From: Streptomyces sp. NBC_01498
GTDB taxonomy: Bacteria; Actinomycetota; Actinomycetes; Streptomycetales; Streptomycetaceae
Reading direction: 5' to 3'
Length of the DNA: 64,000 nucleotides
Assembly (NCBI RefSeq): GCF_036327775.1
Contig: NZ_CP109598.1
Span: 868,001-932,000 of the forward strand
In this document: piece by piece, positions 55,163 through 64,000 of the stretch
Layout of the letters: the number at the start of each line of letters is the position of its first letter
Numbering within the stretch: the stretch's first letter is position 1
Notes under the pieces: model-generated
Database searches by the model: none
Told to the model about the DNA's origin: nothing
Seen by the model: only the letters and a program-made list of their open reading frames with translations
Made by a program: the position numbers and the translations under genes

Positions 55163-56230
55163 TCAGCGGCGCTTCTGGCGCAGCGAGTGCAGGTGGTCGG
55201 CGGACTTCTGCGCGAACAGGAAGGAGTCGACCGGGTTGTCGTGCTCCGCCTGCCAGTGGTGGTCCCGGCGGCCGTTGTGGGTCTTGTTCACGGCGGAGAT
55301 GAACGTCTTGTAGTCGATGTCGCCGTCGCCGACGTCGACCATGTCGTAACCGTCGCGCGCCTCCTCGTTCTTCACGCCGTCCTTGACGTGGAAGAGCGGG
55401 TAGCGGTCGGGCTGCTTGAGGACGTAGCGCAGCGGGTCGAGGGGCGCGGGCCGGCCGTCACCGGTCTGGCTGAAGCGGTGCTTGGCGGCGAAGGCCCAGT
55501 AGATGTCCATCTCCAGGTAGACCAGCTTGGGGTCGGTCTCCGCGAGCAGCACGTCGTAGAGGCGGACGCCCGGCTGGTCGCTGGCGAAGGAGAACTCCTC
55601 GGCGTGGTTGTGCTGGTAGAACTTCATGCCGCGCCTGCGGGCGGCGGCGCCGTAGGTGTTGAAGTCCTCGGCGGCGCGCTTCCATCCGTCGACGGTGTCG
55701 CCGTAGCGCCAGGGGCCGGAGGCGGTGCCGATGTGGTCGAGGCCCAGCGCCTGGGCGTCGTCCAGCACCTTGTCCAGGTTCTGGGCGAAGCTGTACGCGG
55801 CGGGGTTGTTGTCGTCGTAGTAGTTGACGTGGCTGCCGATGGGGCGCAGGCCGTGGTCGCGGGCGAGCTTGCGCAGCTGCGGGAGGGTGAGGGCGCCGGC
55901 GCTGCCCTGGGTGTAGCCCGCGTACTCGATCTCGTCGTAGCCGAAGCGCTCCAGTTCCTCGAAGACCTTGGCGAAGCCGAGCGTGTTGACCTTGTCCCGG
56001 AGGGAGTAGAGCTGGATGCCGAGGTGGCCCGGGGTGAGGACCGGCTCGGTGCGCCCGTGTCCGTGGCCGTGTCCGTGGCCGTGACCCCGGCCGTGGTCGC
56101 CCGCGGCGGCGGGGGTGGCCGCCGCGAGGCCGAGGACGGCCGCGGCTCCGGTGCCCGCGGCCACGCCCAGCATGTTGCGCCGGCTGAGTGTGGCGGCGAG
56201 CTCGGGGTCGACTGACTTCTTGCGGCTCAT
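55163..56230 (-). CDS. Tat-exported sugar-phosphate isomerase/epimerase-like TIM barrel
   Basis: 355 aa. A twin-arginine signal (LSRRNMLGVAAGTGAAAVLGLAAATPAAA) is followed by an unusual Gly-His run (GRGHGHGHGHGHGR), likely able to bind metal. The rest is an AP-endonuclease/xylose-isomerase-like barrel: LGIQLYSLRDKV, FGYDEIEYAGY, GSHVNYYDDN, KFYQHNHAEEFSF, VYLEMDIYWAFAA, FHVKDGVK and QAEHDNPVDSF carry the expected His/Glu/Asp metal ligands. It ends the operon 17 bp after the phosphodiesterase gene and is probably periplasm/wall-facing. Substrate unknown. ATG at 56230. Confidence 0.82.
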   Translation of the reverse strand: MSRKKSVDPELAATLSRRNMLGVAAGTGAAAVLGLAAATPAAAGDHGRGHGHGHGHGHGRTEPVLTPGHLGIQLYSLRDKVNTLGFAKVFEELERFGYDEIEYAGYTQGSAGALTLPQLRKLARDHGLRPIGSHVNYYDDNNPAAYSFAQNLDKVLDDAQALGLDHIGTASGPWRYGDTVDGWKRAAEDFNTYGAAARRRGMKFYQHNHAEEFSFASDQPGVRLYDVLLAETDPKLVYLEMDIYWAFAAKHRFSQTGDGRPAPLDPLRYVLKQPDRYPLFHVKDGVKNEEARDGYDMVDVGDGDIDYKTFISAVNKTHNGRRDHHWQAEHDNPVDSFLFAQKSADHLHSLRQKRR

Positions 56231-56247
56231 GCGTGGAACTCCTTAGT

Positions 56248-57669
56248 TCAGTGCAGTCCGGCGAGAGTGAGGAGCAGGGACTTCACGTCGGTGGCCCGGG
56301 TCCGGCCCGCGACGGCTTCGGGGGTGGAGCAGACGATGAGCGGACCTTCGTCGTCGCTCGTGGGGAGGCGGCCGTGGCTGCCGCGGATGGGTGAGGGGTC
56401 CAGGGGGACCACGGCGAGGCGGTAGCGCATGCCGAGCTTCTTGCGGGCGATGGCCTTGGCCGCCTTGACCTTCACGTACGGATCCTGGGGGTCCATGAAC
56501 AGCTCGACGGGGTCGTAGCCCGGCTTGCGGTGGATCTCGACCAGCTGGGCGAAGTCGGGCGCCCTGGCGTCGTCGAGCCAGTAGTAGTACGTGAACCAGG
56601 CGTCGGGTTCGGCGACGGCGACCAGTTCGCCGGAGCGCGGGTGGTCCAGGCCGTGGTTCTTCTTGCCCTCGTCGTCCAGGATCTCCTCGATGCCCGCGAG
56701 GTCCTTCAGCGCCTCGCGGGTCGCGTCCAGGTCCTCCGGGCGGCGCACGTAGATGTGGGCGATCTGGTGGTCGGAGACGGCGAAGGCGCGGGAGGCCATC
56801 GGGTCCAGGTACTCCATGCCGTCCTGGGTGTGGACCTCCAGCAGTCCGGCGCGGCGCAGGGCCCGGTTGATGTCGACGGGCCGGGAGACGTTGGTGATGC
56901 CGTACTCGGAGAGGGCGACGACGGTGCGGCCCTCGGCGCGCGCGTCGTCCAGCAACGGGCCCATGGCCGCGTCGAGTTCGCGGGCCGCCCGGTGCGAGCG
57001 GGGGTCGTCGGGGCCGAAGCGCTGGAGGTCGTAGTCCAGGTGCGGGAGGTAGCACAGGGCGAGGTCGGGGCGGCGGGTGTCGATGATGTGGCGGGTGGCG
57101 TCGATGATCCACTGCGAGGAGACGAGGTCGGCGCCGGGGCCCCAGAAGTGGAAGAGGGGGAACGTGCCGAGTTTGTCGTGCAGTTCGTCGTGCAGGGCGG
57201 GCGGCCGGGTGTAGCAGTCGGGTTCCTTGCGGCCGTCGGCGTAGTACACGGGGCGGGGGGTGACGGTCCAGTCGGTGTCCGCGCCCATGGCGTACCACCA
57301 GCAGATGTTGGCGACGGTGTAGCCGGGGTGGAGGCGCCGGGCGGCGTCCCAGAGTTTGTCGCCGGAGACCAGTCCGTTGTGCTGGCGCCACAGCAGGACG
57401 TCGCCGAGTTCCCGGAAGTACCAGCCGTTGCCGACGATGCCGTGCTCGGAGGGCAGGGTGCCGGTGAGGAAGGTGGACTGCGCGCTGCACGTGACGGCGG
57501 GCAGCACGGTGGTCAGCGGGGCGTGCGAGCCGTCCGCCGCCAGCTTCTTGAGATTCGGCATGTGGGCCAGGAGCTGGGGGGTGAGGCCGACGACGTCCAG
57601 GACCAGCAGGGGTGTGGGGCGGGTGGTGTCCGGCGCGGCGGACTGCTCGGGGGTGGGGTCGGCGGTCAT
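56248..57669 (-). CDS. alkaline-phosphatase-superfamily phosphodiesterase (EboF-like)
   Basis: 473 aa, related to nucleotide pyrophosphatases/phosphodiesterases. The first metal Asp is in LLVLDVVGLTPQLL, and the nucleophilic Thr is probably in LPAVTCSAQSTFLTGTLPSEHGI. Further ligands are in YLPHLDYDLQRFGPDD, LSEYGITNV and FAVSDHQIAHIYVR. No signal peptide, so it is cytoplasmic unless carried by a partner. Its ATG overlaps the preceding gene's stop (ATGA), indicating coupling. By position and family it corresponds to EboF of ebo clusters; the substrate is unknown, perhaps a phosphodiester of the cluster product. Confidence 0.85.
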   Translation of the reverse strand: MTADPTPEQSAAPDTTRPTPLLVLDVVGLTPQLLAHMPNLKKLAADGSHAPLTTVLPAVTCSAQSTFLTGTLPSEHGIVGNGWYFRELGDVLLWRQHNGLVSGDKLWDAARRLHPGYTVANICWWYAMGADTDWTVTPRPVYYADGRKEPDCYTRPPALHDELHDKLGTFPLFHFWGPGADLVSSQWIIDATRHIIDTRRPDLALCYLPHLDYDLQRFGPDDPRSHRAARELDAAMGPLLDDARAEGRTVVALSEYGITNVSRPVDINRALRRAGLLEVHTQDGMEYLDPMASRAFAVSDHQIAHIYVRRPEDLDATREALKDLAGIEEILDDEGKKNHGLDHPRSGELVAVAEPDAWFTYYYWLDDARAPDFAQLVEIHRKPGYDPVELFMDPQDPYVKVKAAKAIARKKLGMRYRLAVVPLDPSPIRGSHGRLPTSDDEGPLIVCSTPEAVAGRTRATDVKSLLLTLAGLH

Positions 57670-58835
57670 GGCAGCTCCTTGAGGCCCAGGTCGACCAGGA
57701 GGTCGCGGGCCAGCGTCAGTTCGGCGGCGATGCCCTCGGCGAGCCGGCCGCGTGAGCGGGGCCGCAGCTCGGGCGGGAGCGCCTGCCAGGTGTACGTCTC
57801 GACCTCCAGGTGGCGGGTCAGCGGCACGGGGCCGCCGACGAGCCGGGCCAGGGTGTCCTGGAGTACCGGGAGGGTGGAGGTCAGGGGCGGGGCGGGCGGG
57901 GCGTGCAGCGGTACGTGGAAGTGCGAGCGCCAGGGGGCGCCGTCGGGCAGTGTCTCGCCGGCCAGGGCCTCTTCGAGGTCGTCGGTGCCGCGCAGGCCCG
58001 CCGCCGTGCGGGTGCGGGTCTGGTGCAGGAAGCGCGGCTCGGCGAACGCGGCGAGCGCCTCGCGCACCTCGGGCAGATGCGGGTGTTCGGCGTGCAGGGC
58101 GGCGGACAGCTGGGCCTTGGGGATGGTGACGCCGGCCTCGGTGAGGGCCTTGAGGGCGGTGGCCGGGTCCTCGAAGGAGGTGGCGAGGTGGCAGGTGTCG
58201 ACGCAGATGCCGACGCGGGCGCTGGCGACGTCGGTGAGCGGGCCGATCGCGTCGGCGGTGGTCTCGACGGTGCAGCCGGGCTCGGGTTCCAGTGCGATCC
58301 GGATGGATTTGCCGGTCAGTTCCTCCAGCGCGTCGAGCCGTTCGGCGAGGGTGGTGAGGGCGGCGTGCGCGGTGCGGGCCGCGGCGTCGTCGAAGGCGGT
58401 GCGCCAGGCGAGCGGGAGGGTGGAGACGGAGCCCTCGGTGACGTCGTCGGGGAGCAGCGCGGCGAGCAGGCGGGCGAGGTCGGTGGTGTGTTCCAGGCGT
58501 TCGGGGTCGGCCCAGTCCGGTTTGTAGACGCGGTACTTGACCTCCTCGGCGCCGAAGCCCTCGTAGGGGAAGCCGTTGAGGGTGACGACCTCCAGCCCGC
58601 GTCGGTCCAACTCGCTTTTCAGACCGCGCAGTTGGGCGGGGTCGTTGATCAGGGAGCGGGCGGCGTCGCGGGCCAGCCAGAGGCCGATGCCGAGCCGGTC
58701 GCGGCTCAGGCGTTTGCGTACCGGCTCGCAGTGGTCGCGCAGTTGGGCCAGGACGCCTTCGAGGGTCTCGGCGGGGTGGACGTTGGTGCAGTAGGAGAGG
58801 TGGACGGTGGAGCCGTCGGGGTGGCGGAAGCGCAC
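57666..58835 (-). CDS. eboE: metabolite traffic protein EboE
   Basis: 389 aa TIM-barrel protein of the xylose-isomerase/AP-endonuclease superfamily. Features typical of EboE: the N-terminal HLSYCTNVHPAETLEGVLAQL, LGIGLWLARDAA, VVTLNGFPYEGFGAEEVKYRVYKPDW, IRIALEPEPGCTVETT, VGICVDTCHLATSFEDP and FLHQTRTRTAAGLRGTDDLEEAL, with HFHVPLHAPP near the end. The Glu, Asp and His residues suit a metal site. In ebo gene clusters it helps move or process a metabolite, as shown for cyanobacterial scytonemin; its exact reaction is not known. GTG start at 58835, three bases after the TatD gene's stop. Confidence 0.9.
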   Translation of the reverse strand: MRFRHPDGSTVHLSYCTNVHPAETLEGVLAQLRDHCEPVRKRLSRDRLGIGLWLARDAARSLINDPAQLRGLKSELDRRGLEVVTLNGFPYEGFGAEEVKYRVYKPDWADPERLEHTTDLARLLAALLPDDVTEGSVSTLPLAWRTAFDDAAARTAHAALTTLAERLDALEELTGKSIRIALEPEPGCTVETTADAIGPLTDVASARVGICVDTCHLATSFEDPATALKALTEAGVTIPKAQLSAALHAEHPHLPEVREALAAFAEPRFLHQTRTRTAAGLRGTDDLEEALAGETLPDGAPWRSHFHVPLHAPPAPPLTSTLPVLQDTLARLVGGPVPLTRHLEVETYTWQALPPELRPRSRGRLAEGIAAELTLARDLLVDLGLKELP

Positions 58836-58838
58836 GGG

Positions 58839-59687
58839 TCACTCACCGCCGCGGAGGATGGAGTTCCCCTCGTGCAGGGCTTCCGGTGCGGGGACGTCGA
58901 GCTGGAGTCTGCCGCTGAGGCCGTAGAACGCGACGGGGTTGCGCCACAGGACCTTGTCGACGTCGTCGTCGGAGAAGCCGGCGGCGAGCATCGCGTCGGC
59001 GACCTTGCGGGTCTTCAGCGGGTCGCTCTTGCCCCAGTCGGCGGCGGAGTTGACGAGGACGCGGTCGGTGCCGTGGGAGCGCAGGACGGCGACCATCCGG
59101 TCCTCGTCCATCTTGGTGTCGGGGTAGATGGAGAAGCCGAGCCAGCTGCCGCTGTCCGCGGCGTCCTTGACGGTCGTCTCGTTGAGGTGGTCGAGCAGCA
59201 CGTGCTCGGGGTCGAGGTTCGACTCGCGGACGACGTCGATGGTCCGGCGCAGTCCGGTCAGTTTGTCGCGGTGCGGGGTGTGGACCATGGCGGGCAGCGC
59301 GTACTCGGCGGCGAGCTGGAGCTGGGCGGCGAGCGCGACGTCCTCGGCGGGGGTCATGGAGTCGTAGCCGATCTCGCCGACGGCGACGACGCCGTCCTTG
59401 ACGAGATAGCGCGGCAGTTCGTCCAGGACGGGGGTGCACCTCGGGTCGTTCGCCTCCTTGGGGTTGAGGGCGAGCGTGCAGTGGTGCGCGATGCCGTACT
59501 GCGCGGCGCGGAACGGCTCCCAGCCGAGCAGCGCGTCGAAGTAGTCGTAGAAGCTCTCGGGCGAGGTGCGGGGCTGGCCGAGCCAGAAGGACGGCTCGAC
59601 GAGCGCACGGACTCCGGAGGCGTACATGGCCTGGTAGTCGTCCGTGGTGCGGGAGGTCATGTGGATGTGGGGGTCGAAGATACGCAT
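58839..59687 (-). CDS. TatD-like metal-dependent hydrolase (EboB-like)
   Basis: 282 aa amidohydrolase-type barrel. The metal motif HIH is in IFDPHIHMTSRTT. Other ligands are likely in VAVGEIGYDSMTP (Glu), MVHTPHRDK (His), VLLDHLNETT (His) and VLVNSAADWGKSDPL (Asp). It fits the EboB/TatD-family member of ebo clusters. The start ATG overlaps the EboA stop by one base (TGATG). Its hydrolytic substrate is unknown. Confidence 0.87.
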   Translation of the reverse strand: MRIFDPHIHMTSRTTDDYQAMYASGVRALVEPSFWLGQPRTSPESFYDYFDALLGWEPFRAAQYGIAHHCTLALNPKEANDPRCTPVLDELPRYLVKDGVVAVGEIGYDSMTPAEDVALAAQLQLAAEYALPAMVHTPHRDKLTGLRRTIDVVRESNLDPEHVLLDHLNETTVKDAADSGSWLGFSIYPDTKMDEDRMVAVLRSHGTDRVLVNSAADWGKSDPLKTRKVADAMLAAGFSDDDVDKVLWRNPVAFYGLSGRLQLDVPAPEALHEGNSILRGGE

Positions 59688-60283
59688 CAGGACTCCTCGC
59701 CGGTCATGTTCATTACGCGGTGCAGGTCGTCGGGGACCGACCGGCCCGCCGCGGTGCGCTCGGACGCGTAGTCGGCGAGCATCCGGGCGAGTTCCAGGTC
59801 GCCGCGGGCGCGCCGTTCGGCGTCCGCGACGGCGGCGACGGGCACGCCGGTGAAGAGGCACTTGAGTACGGCGTGCCGCCAGGCGTGCGGGTCGAGATGG
59901 CCGGCGGCGTACGGGCCGACGGCCGCCTCGACCAGGGTGGTGTCGTTGGTGCGCAGCGCGTCCTCGATCAGGGGCAGGGCCCCGGGGCCGGGGACGCGGT
60001 CCGGCAGGGCGAGGAGGACGGCGCGGCGTTCGGCGGCGGCGCCCCGCTGGTAGAGGCGGGTGAGGGTGGCGACGTCGGCGGCGGCGTGCCGGAGCAGCAG
60101 GGCCCGGACGGCGTCGGCGTTCTGTTGGCCGACGTGCCGGCCGGCGGCGGCGAAGCGCAGCTCCCACGTCGGTGCGGCAACGTTGTCGGGTGCCCCGGCC
60201 GCTTCCGCCGCCTCGGCGAGCGCCTGGTCGAGCCAGGCGACGGCCTTGGCGTCGAGCCGGCTGTCGATCTCCTCGCGGTTCAT
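59687..60283 (-). CDS. eboA: EboA domain protein
   Basis: 198 aa, almost all helical. Conserved EboA-type segments include WELRFAAAGRHVGQQ, LTRLYQRGAAAERRAVLLALP, ALRTNDTTLVEAAVGPYAAGHLDPHAWRHAVLKCLFTGVPV and LARMLADYASERTAAGRSVPDDL. No catalytic motif or signal peptide is seen; EboA proteins are of unknown function and occur almost only in ebo operons. The ATG overlaps the preceding stop by four bases (ATGA). Confidence 0.9.
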   Translation of the reverse strand: MNREEIDSRLDAKAVAWLDQALAEAAEAAGAPDNVAAPTWELRFAAAGRHVGQQNADAVRALLLRHAAADVATLTRLYQRGAAAERRAVLLALPDRVPGPGALPLIEDALRTNDTTLVEAAVGPYAAGHLDPHAWRHAVLKCLFTGVPVAAVADAERRARGDLELARMLADYASERTAAGRSVPDDLHRVMNMTGEES

Positions 60284-61125
60284 GCCGATGCTCCCTTCGA
60301 GCGCAGGAATTCCAGGGAGGTGCGGGCCATCTCGGGGCCGGCGTGCGAGTGCCGGGGCAGCTCCACGACGGTGAGGCCCTGGTAGCCGGTGGCGTCGAGC
60401 GCGGCCAGCACGGGCGGGAAGTCGATCTCGCCGTCCCCGAACGGCAGATGCTCGTGGACGCCGCGCCGCATGTCCTCGATCTGTACGTGCCGCAGCCAGG
60501 GCCCGGCGTCGCGTACGCAGTCCTCGGGCGGGGCGGGCTCCAGGCACTGGCAGTGGCCGATGTCCAGGGTGAGGCCGAGGGGTTCGGGGTCGCCGAGGAG
60601 GGTGCGGAGGTGGTGGAAGCCGGCGATGTCGGCGAGGAGATGGCCGGGTTCGGGCTCGATGGCGACGGGGACACCGGCTGCCTGTGCGGCCTCGATCACC
60701 GGGGTGATCGATTCCTCCAGCCGTTTCCAGGCGGTGTCGGGGTCGGTGCCGTCGGGGGTGATGCCGCTGAAGCAGTGCACGGCGTGCGCGCCGAGGTCGG
60801 CGGCGACCCGGACGGCGGTGACGAGCAGTCCGGTGCGGGCGGCGCGGGCCTCGGGGTCGGCGTCGAGCAGGGTGGGTCCGTGCTTGCGGCGGGGGTCGAG
60901 GACGTAGCGGGCGCCGGTCTCGACGGTGACGGACAGGCCGAGTCCGGCGAGCCGCGCGCCCACCTTCGCGGTGCGGGCGGCGAGTTCGGGGGCCGTCGGG
61001 TCGAGGTGCATGTGGTCGAGGGTCAGTCCGACGCCGTCGTACCCGAGGTCGGCGAGCAGCCCGAGGGCGTCGTCCAGCCGCAGGTCGGTGAGCCCGTTGG
61101 TGCCGTATCCGTAGCGGAGGGTCAT
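60280..61125 (-). CDS. sugar-phosphate isomerase/epimerase-like TIM barrel
   Basis: 281 aa cytoplasmic barrel of the AP-endonuclease-2/xylose-isomerase-like superfamily. Metal residues are likely in VTVETGARYVLDP (Glu), AIEPEPGHLLAD (Glu), LTLDIGHCQCLEP (Asp, His), HVQIEDMRRGVHEH (Glu, His) and VVELPRHSH (Glu). It has the barrel type seen in inositol and ketose isomerases, which is notable beside an inositol-phosphate synthase in the same operon. The ATG overlaps the UbiA stop (ATGA). Substrate unknown. Confidence 0.85.
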   Translation of the reverse strand: MTLRYGYGTNGLTDLRLDDALGLLADLGYDGVGLTLDHMHLDPTAPELAARTAKVGARLAGLGLSVTVETGARYVLDPRRKHGPTLLDADPEARAARTGLLVTAVRVAADLGAHAVHCFSGITPDGTDPDTAWKRLEESITPVIEAAQAAGVPVAIEPEPGHLLADIAGFHHLRTLLGDPEPLGLTLDIGHCQCLEPAPPEDCVRDAGPWLRHVQIEDMRRGVHEHLPFGDGEIDFPPVLAALDATGYQGLTVVELPRHSHAGPEMARTSLEFLRSKGASA

Positions 61126-63008
61126 GTCACACTCACCTTTTTCGCGAACTTCCTGGCCAGCGGGACGAGTCCGATGACGGCGAGGCCGAGCCCGGGGGCG
61201 CCGCCGCGCGCGGCGAGGGCGGCCTGGAACGGGATCATGGCCCGGATTCCGCCGCCGACGGAGCGCTGGGTGAGCTGCGGGGACGGGTTGAGGGCGGCGT
61301 GCAGGTAGGGCCGTCCGGCGGTGGTGACGTACACGGCGGCGAGGCCGGCGGTCACCAGCGCGGCGGCGTCCGCCGTACGGGGGCGCCCGACGAGCCCGCC
61401 GAGGACCCCGGTGAGGGCGAGCGCGGCGAGCGGGGCGGCGGTGGACCCGCCGTACACCTCGCGCCGGGAGACGGCGGTGACGGCGACGGTGTGCGCGCCG
61501 AGGAGGGCTGCGGGGACGAGGGCGCGGCGGGTGCCCCCGGCCGCCGGGAGCGTGCCGCCGGGCCGTGCGGCGGACCGGCGGGCCGCGTGGGCCGCGTGGG
61601 CGGCCGAACCGGCGGCGAGGGCGGTCAGTGCCTCCCACGGGCCGGTTCCCGGGGCGGGCGGGACCGCGCGGCCCGCGGTGTGCGTCCGGTGGAGCCCGGC
61701 GAGCAGTCGGGCGAGCGGTCCCGCCGCCGCGGCCGGGGTCCGGTGCGAGGAACCGGGGAACCACGCGGGGAGCGCCGACGGGAGGCGGCCGGGCGGGGGC
61801 CCCGCACGGCGGTCGGCCGACAGACCGGCGGCCCAGGCGGACAGCAGGGCCGGCAGTCCGGCCCCGGTGACGGCCGGGTCGCCCGGCCGCGCGGCGGCGT
61901 GCACCGTACGGCCGTGGCGTCCCGGACCGGCGCGGTGGGAGGCCAGCGGCTCCGCCGGACCGAGCGGCGCGGAACGGCCGTTGGGGGACGAGGCGTCGGC
62001 CCAGGCCGACAGCAGGGCGAGCAGCCCGGACGACCGGTCGGCCGGACGGGCGGGGGCACCGGCCGGACCGGCACAGTCGAGGAGTTCCGGGGCGCCGGGC
62101 GCCGGGAGGCCGGTGGCCGCGACCGCCCGGCCGACCTGCGCGCACGCCTCGGTCCAGGCCGACAGCCCGGCGGGGGACGGCGCGGCGTCCGTGCGGAACG
62201 GGGGCGGGCACGGGGTGGAGCCGGTCCCGTGCGCGGGGCCGGCGGGCCGTGAGGCCAGCGGCTCGGTCGGTCCGCAGACCGCCGTGCGTGCCTGGGCGGA
62301 CGATCCGCCCGCCCAGGCCGGCAGCCGGCCGGACAGACCGGTGGGGGCCCCCGTCGGGGCCGGCGGCTGCGGGGAGCGGCCGAGCAGCTTGAGCACGGGG
62401 GCGGCCCACCGGGTCGCCGAAGATTCCGGCCGGGTGCTCCCCGGTGCCGGACCCGCCGCCGTACGGTCCGGCGCACCGCCGGTCCGGGGCAGCGGGCGGG
62501 ACGCCGGGTTCCGCGCCGGACCGGTCTCCCGGGTCCCGGCGGACGCGGCGCGGGAGGCCGCCGTCGTCGTCGCGGCGGCGCCCAGGAGTACGTCCAGCGC
62601 GCGGGCGGCGCCCATCGCCACCGGGCCCGCCGCCGTGTGCTTGAGCTTGAGGTCGTACGCCCAGACCGCGACCGTCAGGGCGCCGGTCAGGGCCAGGGCG
62701 GGGCGCCCGGCGCGGGACGCGAGGAAGAGGCCGGCGGCCGTGAGGCCGCCCGCCGCCGTGAGCGCCGCGTTCGGGCTGATACGGCCCGAGGGGATCGGGC
62801 GGTGCGGGCGCTCCCGGGCGTCCTCCTCGCGGTCGGCCCAGTCGTTGAGCGCCATCCCCGCCTCGTACAGGCACAGGGAGGCGCCGACGGCGAGCGCGGT
62901 GCCGCGATTGGGCCGGACCCCGGCGGACGCCGCGCCGGCCAGGGCGTCGCCCGGCACGGTGAACAGCGCGGAGACCCGCAGGAGTTCGGCCCAGGCGCGC
63001 AAGGTCAC
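61122..63008 (-). CDS. UbiA-family prenyltransferase (EboC-like) with large repetitive insertion
   Basis: 628 aa; ordinary relatives are near 290-300. The first half has FTVPGDALAGAASAG, the magnesium motif NDWADREEDARERPHRPIPS (N56, D57, D60, D63) and helices up to ALDVLLGAAAT (about residue 146). The family pattern resumes near residue 492 with ALLGAHTVAVTAVSRREVYGG and ends with more helices. Between them is a ~340-residue Pro/Ala/Gly-rich insert with internal repeats (GPTEPLASRPAGP and GPAEPLASHRAGP; LLSAWADASS and LLSAWAAGLS). The GTG start overlaps the synthase stop (GTGA). It should attach a prenyl group to a small polar or aromatic acceptor; whether the insert permits activity is open. 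Confidence 0.82.
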   Translation of the reverse strand: MTLRAWAELLRVSALFTVPGDALAGAASAGVRPNRGTALAVGASLCLYEAGMALNDWADREEDARERPHRPIPSGRISPNAALTAAGGLTAAGLFLASRAGRPALALTGALTVAVWAYDLKLKHTAAGPVAMGAARALDVLLGAAATTTAASRAASAGTRETGPARNPASRPLPRTGGAPDRTAAGPAPGSTRPESSATRWAAPVLKLLGRSPQPPAPTGAPTGLSGRLPAWAGGSSAQARTAVCGPTEPLASRPAGPAHGTGSTPCPPPFRTDAAPSPAGLSAWTEACAQVGRAVAATGLPAPGAPELLDCAGPAGAPARPADRSSGLLALLSAWADASSPNGRSAPLGPAEPLASHRAGPGRHGRTVHAAARPGDPAVTGAGLPALLSAWAAGLSADRRAGPPPGRLPSALPAWFPGSSHRTPAAAAGPLARLLAGLHRTHTAGRAVPPAPGTGPWEALTALAAGSAAHAAHAARRSAARPGGTLPAAGGTRRALVPAALLGAHTVAVTAVSRREVYGGSTAAPLAALALTGVLGGLVGRPRTADAAALVTAGLAAVYVTTAGRPYLHAALNPSPQLTQRSVGGGIRAMIPFQAALAARGGAPGLGLAVIGLVPLARKFAKKVSVT

Positions 63009-64000
63009 TTGCTCTCCTTCAGGCGGTCGGCGAAGGCGAGGAGCGCGTCGAACTGCTCCGCCAGGGCGGCGGGGCCGCCGTCCGGGTCCTTGAAGTAGAA
63101 GCCCAGCTCGGGGAGCGGGCCACTCAGTCCGGCCTCGTGGGCACGGGAGACGAGGCGGGCCAGGTCCAGGACGAGGGGCGCGGCGAGCGCCGAGTCGCAG
63201 CCCTGCCAGATGGTCTGGAGGATCATGCGGGAGCCGAGGAACCCGTCGAAGGCGATGTGGTCCCAGGCGGTCTTCCACTCGCCGAGGGCGGGCACGTCGT
63301 CGATGTGCACCTCGCCCTCCGGGGCGATCCCGAGGGTGTCGGCGAGGACGCGTTCCTTGCCGGCGTTCTTGGCGGCGGCCGCCGCCGGGTCGGCCAGCGC
63401 CGCTCCGTCCCCGCCGCCCAGCAGGTTGGTGCCCGACCAGGCGCGTACGTGCAGGGCGCGCTGGACGAACATCGGGGCGAGCACGGAACGGAGCAGCGTC
63501 TGGCCTGTCTTGCCGTCACGGCCCGCGTGGGGAAGTCCGCTCGCCTCGACGGCGTCCGCGAGGGCCGCGCTGCGCAGCCCGGTCGACGGGGTGAAGTTCA
63601 CGTAGGAGCAGCCGGCCTTGAGGGCGGCTGCCGCGTAGAGGGAGCTGGCCGGCAGCCGGGGGTCGTCCGCGGCGGGCTCGGGCTCGGTGGAGGAGACGTT
63701 GACGACGACCGCGCGGTCGACGCCGGTGCGGCGGACGAAGGCGGTGATGTCGTCGGCGAAGGCGGCGATCAGTTCGTCGTCGTCGCGGTTGTCGCCGGGC
63801 ATCGGTCCGCCGAGGCGGATCTCGGCGTCGGCGGCTTCGAGGTCGGCGGCGACGGCGTTGGGCAGGCCGTGCGGCAGGACGCCGGCCGCGGTGAGTGCCT
63901 CGGCCCGCTTGGGCAGGGGGCAGCTCGCGGTGTCGTGGCCGCCGAAGACCAGTGCGGACAGGGCCGGGAGTCCGGACTCCGCGAAGGGCGGGGTCTCGGC
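63005..64000 (-). CDS. inositol-3-phosphate synthase (5' end beyond the window)
   Basis: At least 331 residues; the frame is open to the right edge, so the N-terminus is missing. Recognised by LSALVFGGHDTASCPLPKRAEAL, VDRAVVVNVSSTEPE, SSLYAAAALKAGCSYVNFTPSTGLRS, HAGRDGKTGQTLLRSVLAPMF, and GTNLLGGGDGAALADPAAAAAK, then DHIAFDGFLGSRMILQTIWQGCDSALAAPLVLDLARLV. The enzyme makes 1D-myo-inositol 3-phosphate from glucose 6-phosphate using bound NAD. The usual housekeeping copy is not in such operons, so this is probably a second, pathway-specific one. It is the first visible gene of the minus-strand Ebo operon. Confidence 0.9.
   Translation of the reverse strand, partial: AETPPFAESGLPALSALVFGGHDTASCPLPKRAEALTAAGVLPHGLPNAVAADLEAADAEIRLGGPMPGDNRDDDELIAAFADDITAFVRRTGVDRAVVVNVSSTEPEPAADDPRLPASSLYAAAALKAGCSYVNFTPSTGLRSAALADAVEASGLPHAGRDGKTGQTLLRSVLAPMFVQRALHVRAWSGTNLLGGGDGAALADPAAAAAKNAGKERVLADTLGIAPEGEVHIDDVPALGEWKTAWDHIAFDGFLGSRMILQTIWQGCDSALAAPLVLDLARLVSRAHEAGLSGPLPELGFYFKDPDGGPAALAEQFDALLAFADRLKESK

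Follow-up and report, generated by a model that had tools for sequence, protein, structure and literature searches.

The 64,000-nucleotide stretch of Streptomyces sp. NBC_01498 analyzed here (the window; contig NZ_CP109598.1, positions 868,001 to 932,000) contains an ebo-type operon that is headed by an inositol-phosphate synthase (Ino), in the place that the cyclase EboD holds in other ebo operons. At a rough probability of 0.45, we tentatively read it as an Ino-type variant of the ebo metabolite-traffic operon, in which Ino together with a triosephosphate isomerase (TIM) barrel protein, termed TIM1, would replace EboD, and a prenylated cyclitol would aid the traffic of the products of partner pathways. 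The cyclase exchange rests on comparison; the chemistry and the transport are what we infer. The operon comprises eight minus-strand genes (55163-64132), the first of which extends 132 bp beyond the window end once the open reading frames are fixed. From the first gene to the last they are arranged as follows:

63005-64132, minus strand: Ino, predicted archaeal-type myo-inositol-1-phosphate synthase (MIPS), 331 of 375 residues within the window, start at L003:10133; Pfam PF01658/PF07994 and a match to PDB 1u1i
61122-63008, minus strand: UbiA, SCO3242-family prenyltransferase and counterpart of EboC, 628 residues; NF045897, 355.5 bits
60280-61125, minus strand: TIM1, AP_endonuc_2-like TIM barrel (keto-sugar epimerase/isomerase/dehydratase type), 281 residues; assigned from sequence relatives
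59687-60283, minus strand: EboA, 198 residues; NF035938, 154.2 bits
58839-59687, minus strand: EboB, TatD-like metallo-hydrolase, 282 residues; assigned from identity to TatD-family genes of EboD-type operons
57666-58835, minus strand: EboE, TIM barrel, 389 residues; NF035939, 433.5 bits
56248-57669, minus strand: EboF, type I phosphodiesterase/nucleotide pyrophosphatase family, 473 residues; PF01663
55163-56230, minus strand: twin-arginine (Tat)-type AP_endonuc_2 TIM barrel, accessory and outside the conserved core, 355 residues; PF01261, with the twin-arginine type signal SRRNMLG

The joints between these genes are, in the same order, overlaps of 4, 4, 4 and 1 nt, a gap of 3 bp, an overlap of 4 nt and a gap of 17 bp. 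Pfam matches in the operon comprise Inos-1-P_synth, NAD_binding_5, Phosphodiest and AP_endonuc_2. Frames, Pfam and curated families together confirm the original prediction, made from the letters of the window, of eight tightly joined genes in an ebo-type operon whose first gene encodes an inositol-phosphate synthase. The conserved core runs Ino-UbiA-TIM1-EboA-EboB-EboE-EboF, in which Ino occupies the place of EboD as compared with the operons read in Proteobacteria, Deinococcota, Bacteroidota and Cyanobacteria. Like the ebo ABCDEF type of eustigmatophyte plastids, Bacteroidota and Cyanobacteria, the operon clusters EboA, EboB, EboE, EboF and a UbiA-superfamily protein; it differs in having no EboD, and in possessing an archaeal-type Ino, an extra TIM barrel and a UbiA protein of the SCO3242 family. 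As two features that define the ABCDEF type fail here, EboD and the EboC equivalog, we file the operon as a variant rather than a member of that type, and one that likely works in the same way.

The original prediction had allowed for an EboD gene just beyond the window. This candidate was rejected, as none was found among the genes read to the right, and the dehydroquinate (DHQ)-synthase family matches in the genome lie far off, at 6.25 Mb and, weak and below the cut-off, at 0.81 Mb, compared to 0.92-0.93 Mb for the operon. The idea that the operon Ino is the sole copy was likewise rejected: the genome has two Ino1 copies, the second of which, at 3.64 Mb, is the housekeeping copy, and the operon Ino shares 4 nt with the next gene of the ebo set.

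Further analysis of the operon Ino revealed both Pfam domains and a near full-length match to the solved archaeal enzyme of Archaeoglobus fulgidus (PDB 1u1i; E 6.9e-57, residues 13-365 of 375), so it is a predicted archaeal-type MIPS. The match to 1gr0, which we take to be the Mycobacterium enzyme, has an E of 1.5e-5, and the score of 28.9 bits against the mycothiol INO1 model TIGR03450 is below the cut-off of 638. All seven catalytic positions of the A. fulgidus enzyme (N255, D261, K274, K278, K306, D332 and K367) are retained in the operon Ino, and the same seven residues are present in all of the 35 aligned Ino proteins, an alignment that excludes L207. We take the roles of these residues as presumed, two of them being seen altered in mutant PDB entries. 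The two enzymes are thus alike in fold family, length and catalytic residues; the difference is that the copy here heads an ebo-type operon, whereas the A. fulgidus Ino1 is presumably a stand-alone enzyme.

The arrangement is conserved across related genomes. When genome contigs were scanned with EboB, 576 relatives emerged; the best 80 loci were taken, nearly all of them from Streptomyces and biased to near relatives; these counts keep L060, which has no UbiA match, and count L088 and L091, the two ends of one contig, twice. Upstream of EboB, 67 loci extend for 5.5 kb or more; Ino is found in 66 of them, UbiA in 65, TIM1 in 66 and EboA in 67, and all of the 74 loci with at least 5.5 kb downstream possess EboE and EboF. 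The Tat-type barrel, at >55% identity, is present in 46 of these 74. In a draw of 246 genomes spread evenly across the phylum Actinomycetota, EboB was found in 12, one of which (G186) has an EboB of 29% identity and none of the other ebo genes on its 9.6-kb contig. The other 11, from the families f1, f3, f6, f16 and f31, share the order Ino-UbiA-TIM1-EboA-EboB-EboE-EboF. The 11 genomes with the ebo-linked EboB are also the only ones with an Ino at E <= 2.7e-87; the next-best Ino is at 2.5e-49. Each of the 11 has two Ino genes and each of 8 tested non-ebo genomes has one. L150 and L153 gave no match to the housekeeping Ino query and are left out of the comparison made with that query; in these two genomes the second Ino is nearer the archaeal kind.

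The co-occurrence within Streptomyces that the original prediction had anticipated was also found. Among 121 genomes, 81 carry EboB and the ebo-type Ino, 3 EboB alone, 3 Ino alone and 34 neither, with no EboD at the ebo loci read. The corresponding Fisher p of 4e-23 is uncorrected for relatedness and overstates independence, since the Streptomyces genomes are related. Ino and EboB are paired on one contig, 2.4-4.6 kb apart, in 69 of the 81 genomes; in most of the 12 with both genes unpaired by position, the two lie on different contigs. The three genomes with Ino and no EboB (G257, G326 and G360) are assemblies in hundreds of contigs each. As a separate observation, G309 carries two EboB genes 2.9 kb apart (G309:C78:11616-15382), which are 84% and 79% identical to the window EboB.

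Plasmids extend the comparison to other phyla. Among the matches listed, 48 plasmid records have EboE, of which 29 have Ino, 15 EboD, none both and 4 neither, where the EboE, EboD and Ino matches were compared by eye, EboD means at least 44% identity, and the best 60 of 95 EboD and best 40 of 41 Ino records were used. Within the same matches, Ino is present in 28 of the 32 actinobacterial EboE records and in Gemmatirosa, and the 15 EboD-bearing records belong to Proteobacteria, Deinococcus and Aureibacter; many of the Streptomyces NBC plasmids are near copies of each other. Two of the records with neither cyclase (L198 and L199) carry an EboA fragment plus EboB, EboE and EboF; in S. fungicidicus, EboE lies at the record end; and in L197 a lone EboE (L197:9995-11173) sits in a type II polyketide cluster of a Streptomyces plasmid, a similarly annotated cluster in L176 adjoining a full Ino-type operon. 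Using the Azospirillum EboD as query, 229 of the 246 Actinomycetota genomes match at 1e-10. EboD elsewhere in Actinomycetota was nevertheless rejected, as among the matches listed these are at AroB level, with at most 42% identity and a best E of 2e-43, compared to 44-60% identity and E 3e-100 or better for 15 other EboD plasmid records. The Streptomyces clavuligerus matches to EboD are named sedoheptulose 7-phosphate cyclase (36%).

The arrangement was read in 23 plasmid loci. Those of Runella, Roseomonas and Halomarina have Ino without ebo genes, that of NBC_01244 a lone EboE, and that of Gloeothece EboD and EboB only. Three haloarchaeal plasmids, from Halobaculum, Natronococcus and Halocatena, possess TatD-like, UbiA, Ino and EboF-like genes together with two TIM1-like genes; EboA and EboE were not found on these three. 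Two of them also carry a GSDH- or pyrroloquinoline quinone (PQQ)-type sugar dehydrogenase, an extra TIM barrel and an ATP-binding cassette (ABC) transporter, a company that resembles that of the window. Another haloarchaeal Ino (L173:11998-14463), close to the ebo-type haloarchaeal Ino, adjoins a glycosyltransferase, with no ebo genes in the stretch.

TIM1 goes with Ino in several settings, so that the two together may do the work of EboD. Of the 67 loci, the same 66 contain both, and among the EboD operons, those of Azospirillum, Mycetohabitans, Salipiger and Deinococcus gave no TIM1 match. In S. macrolidinus (L090:8362-9905), neither Ino nor TIM1 is present on either side of UbiA, and UbiA, EboA, EboB, EboE and EboF are retained; its only other Ino match is housekeeping-like (26%). 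Moreover, in an operon type of the actinobacterial family f18 (L202-L207) and of a Roseomonas plasmid (L172), an Ino of archaeal type stands with a Gfo/Idh-like gene and a relative of TIM1, and no ebo genes were found. L203 has a confirmed YcaO gene; in L172, YcaO is present by annotation, together with a methyltransferase and a metallo-beta-lactamase (MBL)-fold gene. MIPS and the sugar-phosphate-cyclase family both cyclise a sugar phosphate to a polyol ring, although for EboD itself this is taken from its family.

Phylogenetic analysis indicated that the cyclase has been exchanged more than once. In the EboB tree, the Ino-type Gemmatirosa falls beside the EboD types, with Deinococcus at a support of 100, and in the EboF tree it groups with Azospirillum and Mycetohabitans, at a support of only 62. 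In the EboC tree, Gemmatirosa lies outside the EboD clade of Proteobacteria and Deinococcus (support 100), and Aureibacter stands apart on a long branch. In likelihood tests on FastTree-constrained, roughly optimised topologies, a single EboD clade was rejected for EboB (approximately unbiased test, p-AU 1e-62) and for EboF (0.013), and was not rejected for EboC (0.63, with Aureibacter dropped). A tree uniting Gemmatirosa with the EboD types, the opposite case, was likewise not rejected for EboC (0.16), and for EboB it was rejected as well (0.008). As the Ino and EboD types fail to separate on the EboB and EboF trees, at least two cyclase exchanges are supported, whereas co-inheritance of EboC with the cyclase is only suggested; both conclusions rest on one Gemmatimonadota genome, through its Gemmatirosa plasmid.

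The UbiA protein passes the SCO3242 prenyltransferase model NF045897 (355.5 bits, cut-off 260) and matches the EboC equivalog NF035940 below the cut-off (137.5 bits of 250). The first Asp-rich motif, NDxxDxxxD, is present in this protein and its relatives. The canonical second motif of UbiA proteins is of the DxxD or DxxxD type; the corresponding position reads S-R-R-E in the window UbiA, which therefore lacks it, and 18 aligned EboC-type proteins have S-R-x-E or other letters there, with no Asp pair. An Ala/Pro/Gly-rich low-complexity insert (residues ~142-457) lies between the two conserved segments. The relatives span 282 (insert-free) to 515 residues, so that at 628 residues the window protein is the longest among the loci measured, a list that left out L072 and L033 (frame readings of 0 and 153 residues). 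In L104 (family f6), the gene of a polyprenyl synthetase (L104:13559-14626) shares 4 nt with EboF, an arrangement in favor of a prenyl donor.

Ubi-297/EboC of Maribacter, Zobellia and Algoriphagus (Amiri Moghaddam 2022, PMC9235831) is, like the window protein, an ebo-operon UbiA with an Asp-rich motif (DxxDxxxD); it differs in that its ebo set includes EboD and that its acceptor in vitro is an aromatic quinoline. EboC homologues farnesylate 8-hydroxyquinoline-2-carboxylic acid in vitro, and the EboC-type proteins of ebo sets include that of Saccharomonospora (PMC9235831). By analogy, this farnesylation argues for prenyl transfer, not for a plain polyol acceptor.

For the remaining proteins, EboA passes the EboA domain model NF035938 (154.2 bits, cut-off 50) and stays below the cut-off of the full-length EboA_family model NF035937 (66.8 bits of the 320 needed). 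Its AlphaFold2 model is all helical, with a predicted local distance difference test (pLDDT) of 96.6, and is predicted to form a HEAT-like helical solenoid. EboE passes NF035939 (433.5 bits, cut-off 250). EboB shares 57.5% and 54.4% identity with the TatD-family genes of the EboD-type operons of Azospirillum and Mycetohabitans, respectively. EboF matches PF01663 with an E of 4.2e-69, scored on a longer frame that encloses it, and is 56% identical to its counterpart in the Azospirillum EboD-type operon. Neither EboB nor EboF is above the cut-off of any curated NCBIfam model.

To the right of the window, on the same strand as Ino, lies first a large protein with ThuA, GSDH, CBM6, PKD and 3-keto-disaccharide-hydrolase domains, followed by an AP_endonuc_2 barrel, a Gfo/Idh oxidoreductase, a sugar-binding protein, an ABC permease and ATPase (both identified by reading the sequence only) and a ROK protein. 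Among the 65 loci with at least 9.5 kb upstream, the ThuA protein is present in 60, the AP_endonuc_2 gene in 56 and the Gfo gene in 51. The 133-bp gap between Ino and the ThuA/GSDH gene (L003:10134-10266) contains a perfect inverted repeat of 13 bp around a 4-base loop, which is terminator-like without a T run (fold z -2.7). Because of this stem-loop, Ino may well start its own transcript; the promoter scan gave nothing above chance, other promoter types being outside its coverage.

In other genomes the company changes: Ino-type ebo operons variously adjoin a non-ribosomal peptide synthetase (NRPS), a type II polyketide synthase (PKS; L176), or ScyD/ScyE plus a multicopper oxidase, and at the window locus a sugar transporter and ThuA/GSDH. 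The ScyD/ScyE-family gene (L170:8626-9825) lies directly upstream of a Streptomyces Ino-type ebo operon, a context remote from scytonemin formation in cyanobacteria. In Nostoc, scytonemin is lost in each of the ebo deletion mutants, which build up its monomer in the cytoplasm only, and the ebo genes were tied to metabolite traffic, with a proposed passage of the scytonemin monomer to the periplasm (Klicki 2018, PMC6282210). The Nostoc punctiforme cluster has homologous EboA, EboB, EboE, EboF and UbiA genes; it differs in being of the EboD type (eboD genes, PMC5133447) and in its tie to scytonemin. Since the Ino-type operon changes company in this way, a portable helper explains it better than a single end product.

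Under the reading of an Ino-type traffic operon, Ino would cyclise glucose 6-phosphate to a cyclitol phosphate, which TIM1 would epimerise or dehydrate. Within the membrane, the UbiA protein would then couple the modified cyclitol with a prenyl diphosphate; trimming and dephosphorylation would fall to EboB, EboE and EboF, and EboA might serve as a scaffold. The resulting prenylated cyclitol would act as a membrane carrier or cofactor, with which partner pathways could hand small molecules to enzymes outside the cytoplasm. At the window locus, the likely partners would be the ThuA/GSDH/3-keto-hydrolase protein and the Tat-exported barrel.

Several observations weigh against this proposal. The traffic function is carried over by analogy from one EboD-type cyanobacterium. 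Prenyl diphosphate use by the UbiA protein is not certain, as it has no canonical second Asp-rich motif. The acceptors of EboC are aromatic, with quinolines preferred and no product from phenols or catechols, and cyclitols are not named among its substrates in the available part of that article (PMC9235831). As for the cyclase exchange, EboB occurs without an ebo-type Ino in G262, G313 and the draft G297, and Streptomyces G128 has a second ebo copy (L101:5777-14633) without Ino, with an FAD oxidoreductase upstream and a 428-aa gene downstream of EboF that is a probable P450 from sequence reading only. Owing to these four cases, the ebo module may work without its own Ino. L101 also carries TIM1 without Ino, against a strict link of the two; L060 carries Ino and TIM1 with no UbiA match; and in the EboD-type Ketogulonicigenium, a gene resembling sugar phosphate isomerases adjoins EboB.

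Of the alternatives, a stand-alone pathway uses the same enzyme set: Ino would make inositol phosphate, the barrels would isomerise it, UbiA would prenylate it, and the prenylated cyclitol would be exported as a secreted product. It agrees with the isoprenoid-cyclitol compound proposed for ebo operons generally (Yurchenko 2016, PMC5133447) and with the polyprenyl synthetase of L104. However, a core beside pathways as unrelated as NRPS, type II PKS, ScyD/ScyE and a sugar transporter suits a helper better, the conserved core has no exporter, and the Nostoc phenotype concerns another metabolite (PMC6282210). A cyclitol pathway, as originally predicted, is therefore possible and unproven, while its stand-alone form is not the best fit, given the unrelated neighbours of the same core and the metabolite traffic of Klicki 2018 (PMC6282210), and we consider it unlikely.

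Distinctly less likely is a membrane redox carrier, for which the cyclitol would be oxidised (Gfo/Idh), dehydrated by IolE-like barrels to a polyhydroxybenzene and prenylated by UbiA, giving a quinol-like compound that serves exported beta-propeller oxidoreductases. Homologues of the window ThuA/GSDH protein in the 60 of 65 loci, and also in L104, L107, L108 and L213, would suit this scheme, as would GSDH in L106 and L168, an annotated PQQ-dependent sugar dehydrogenase in L174, a PQQ dehydrogenase in L175, ScyD/ScyE in L170 and DUF7133, presumably a beta-propeller, in L166 and L200. On the other hand, no such neighbour occurs in the stretch read of L101, L105, L109, L164, L165, L167, L169, L176, L201, L210, L211 and L212, and GSDH adjacency within one genus is weak because the genome holds 12 GSDH-family genes. 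TIM1 and the neighbouring AP_endonuc_2 barrel do score to the myo-inosose dehydratase IolE, but weakly and far below the cut-off, and we know of no redox activity for an ebo-type operon. The aromatic substrates accepted by EboC homologues favor the scheme, whereas the phenols and catechols that were not prenylated speak against it (PMC9235831).

That the operon synthase forms another kind of ring, for example the five-membered cyclitol phosphate of 6k96, is very unlikely: 6k96, a synthase named for that product which we take to be aristeromycin Ari2, is among the solved relatives, yet its match (5.1e-8) is far weaker than that of the Archaeoglobus MIPS (6.9e-57 over residues 13-365). Slightly less likely still is the view that Ino only boosts ordinary inositol supply from an incidental position: the seven catalytic residues do fit a true inositol-phosphate synthase, but a housekeeping Ino is also in the genome, the co-occurrence and fixed first position hold across families, EboD stands in its stead elsewhere, and S. 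macrolidinus lacks it along with TIM1.

Parts of this system have been described before. The original prediction called the pathway undescribed and without a known product, which is too strong, as EboA, EboE and UbiA match named NCBI families. We assume that the remainder of the CDA (calcium-dependent antibiotic) gene set matches the ebo operon. The CDA cluster of S. coelicolor, SCO3210-SCO3249, lists the putative transferase SCO3242 and the myo-inositol phosphate synthase SCO3243 (PMC3610822), and isomerase-EboA fusions are mentioned in Actinobacteria (Yurchenko 2016, PMC5133447). SCO3242 names the family of the window UbiA; the pair differs from the window genes in its location in a lipopeptide antibiotic cluster. 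The inositol-biosynthesis enzyme InoA of S. coelicolor is SCO3899 (PMC7581861). The ebo operon with its cyclitol guess, the isomerase-EboA fusions, EboC-type proteins, NCBI family names and the CDA pair were thus known already, and we did not find in the literature searched Ino as an alternative cyclase, the exclusion of EboD, the haloarchaeal and Gemmatimonadota relatives or the Ino-TIM1 link. Keyword search found no literature linking Ino to ebo genes, which leaves absence unproven, as most subscription papers lie outside the literature searched.

The question of the ebo product dates from 2016, when a cyclitol was guessed only from the family of EboD. That a different ring-closing enzyme replaces EboD, and never joins it in our sample, is independent support for a cyclitol step. 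In a bolder view, to which we give little credence, Ino- and EboD-type operons would be two solutions for one lipid class, a prenylated cyclitol-derived carrier that dehydration might render quinol-like. It would link the cytoplasm to exported oxidoreductases and to steps of export, in bacteria and haloarchaea as well as some algal plastids, and its ring enzyme would have been exchanged at least two times. The Ino type offers an easier entry to this question, through the standard MIPS assay, labelled inositol and mutable Streptomyces strains. Altogether, the operons beside antibiotic and polyketide clusters, with their CDA homologues, could explain genes of antibiotic clusters that have no assigned roles.

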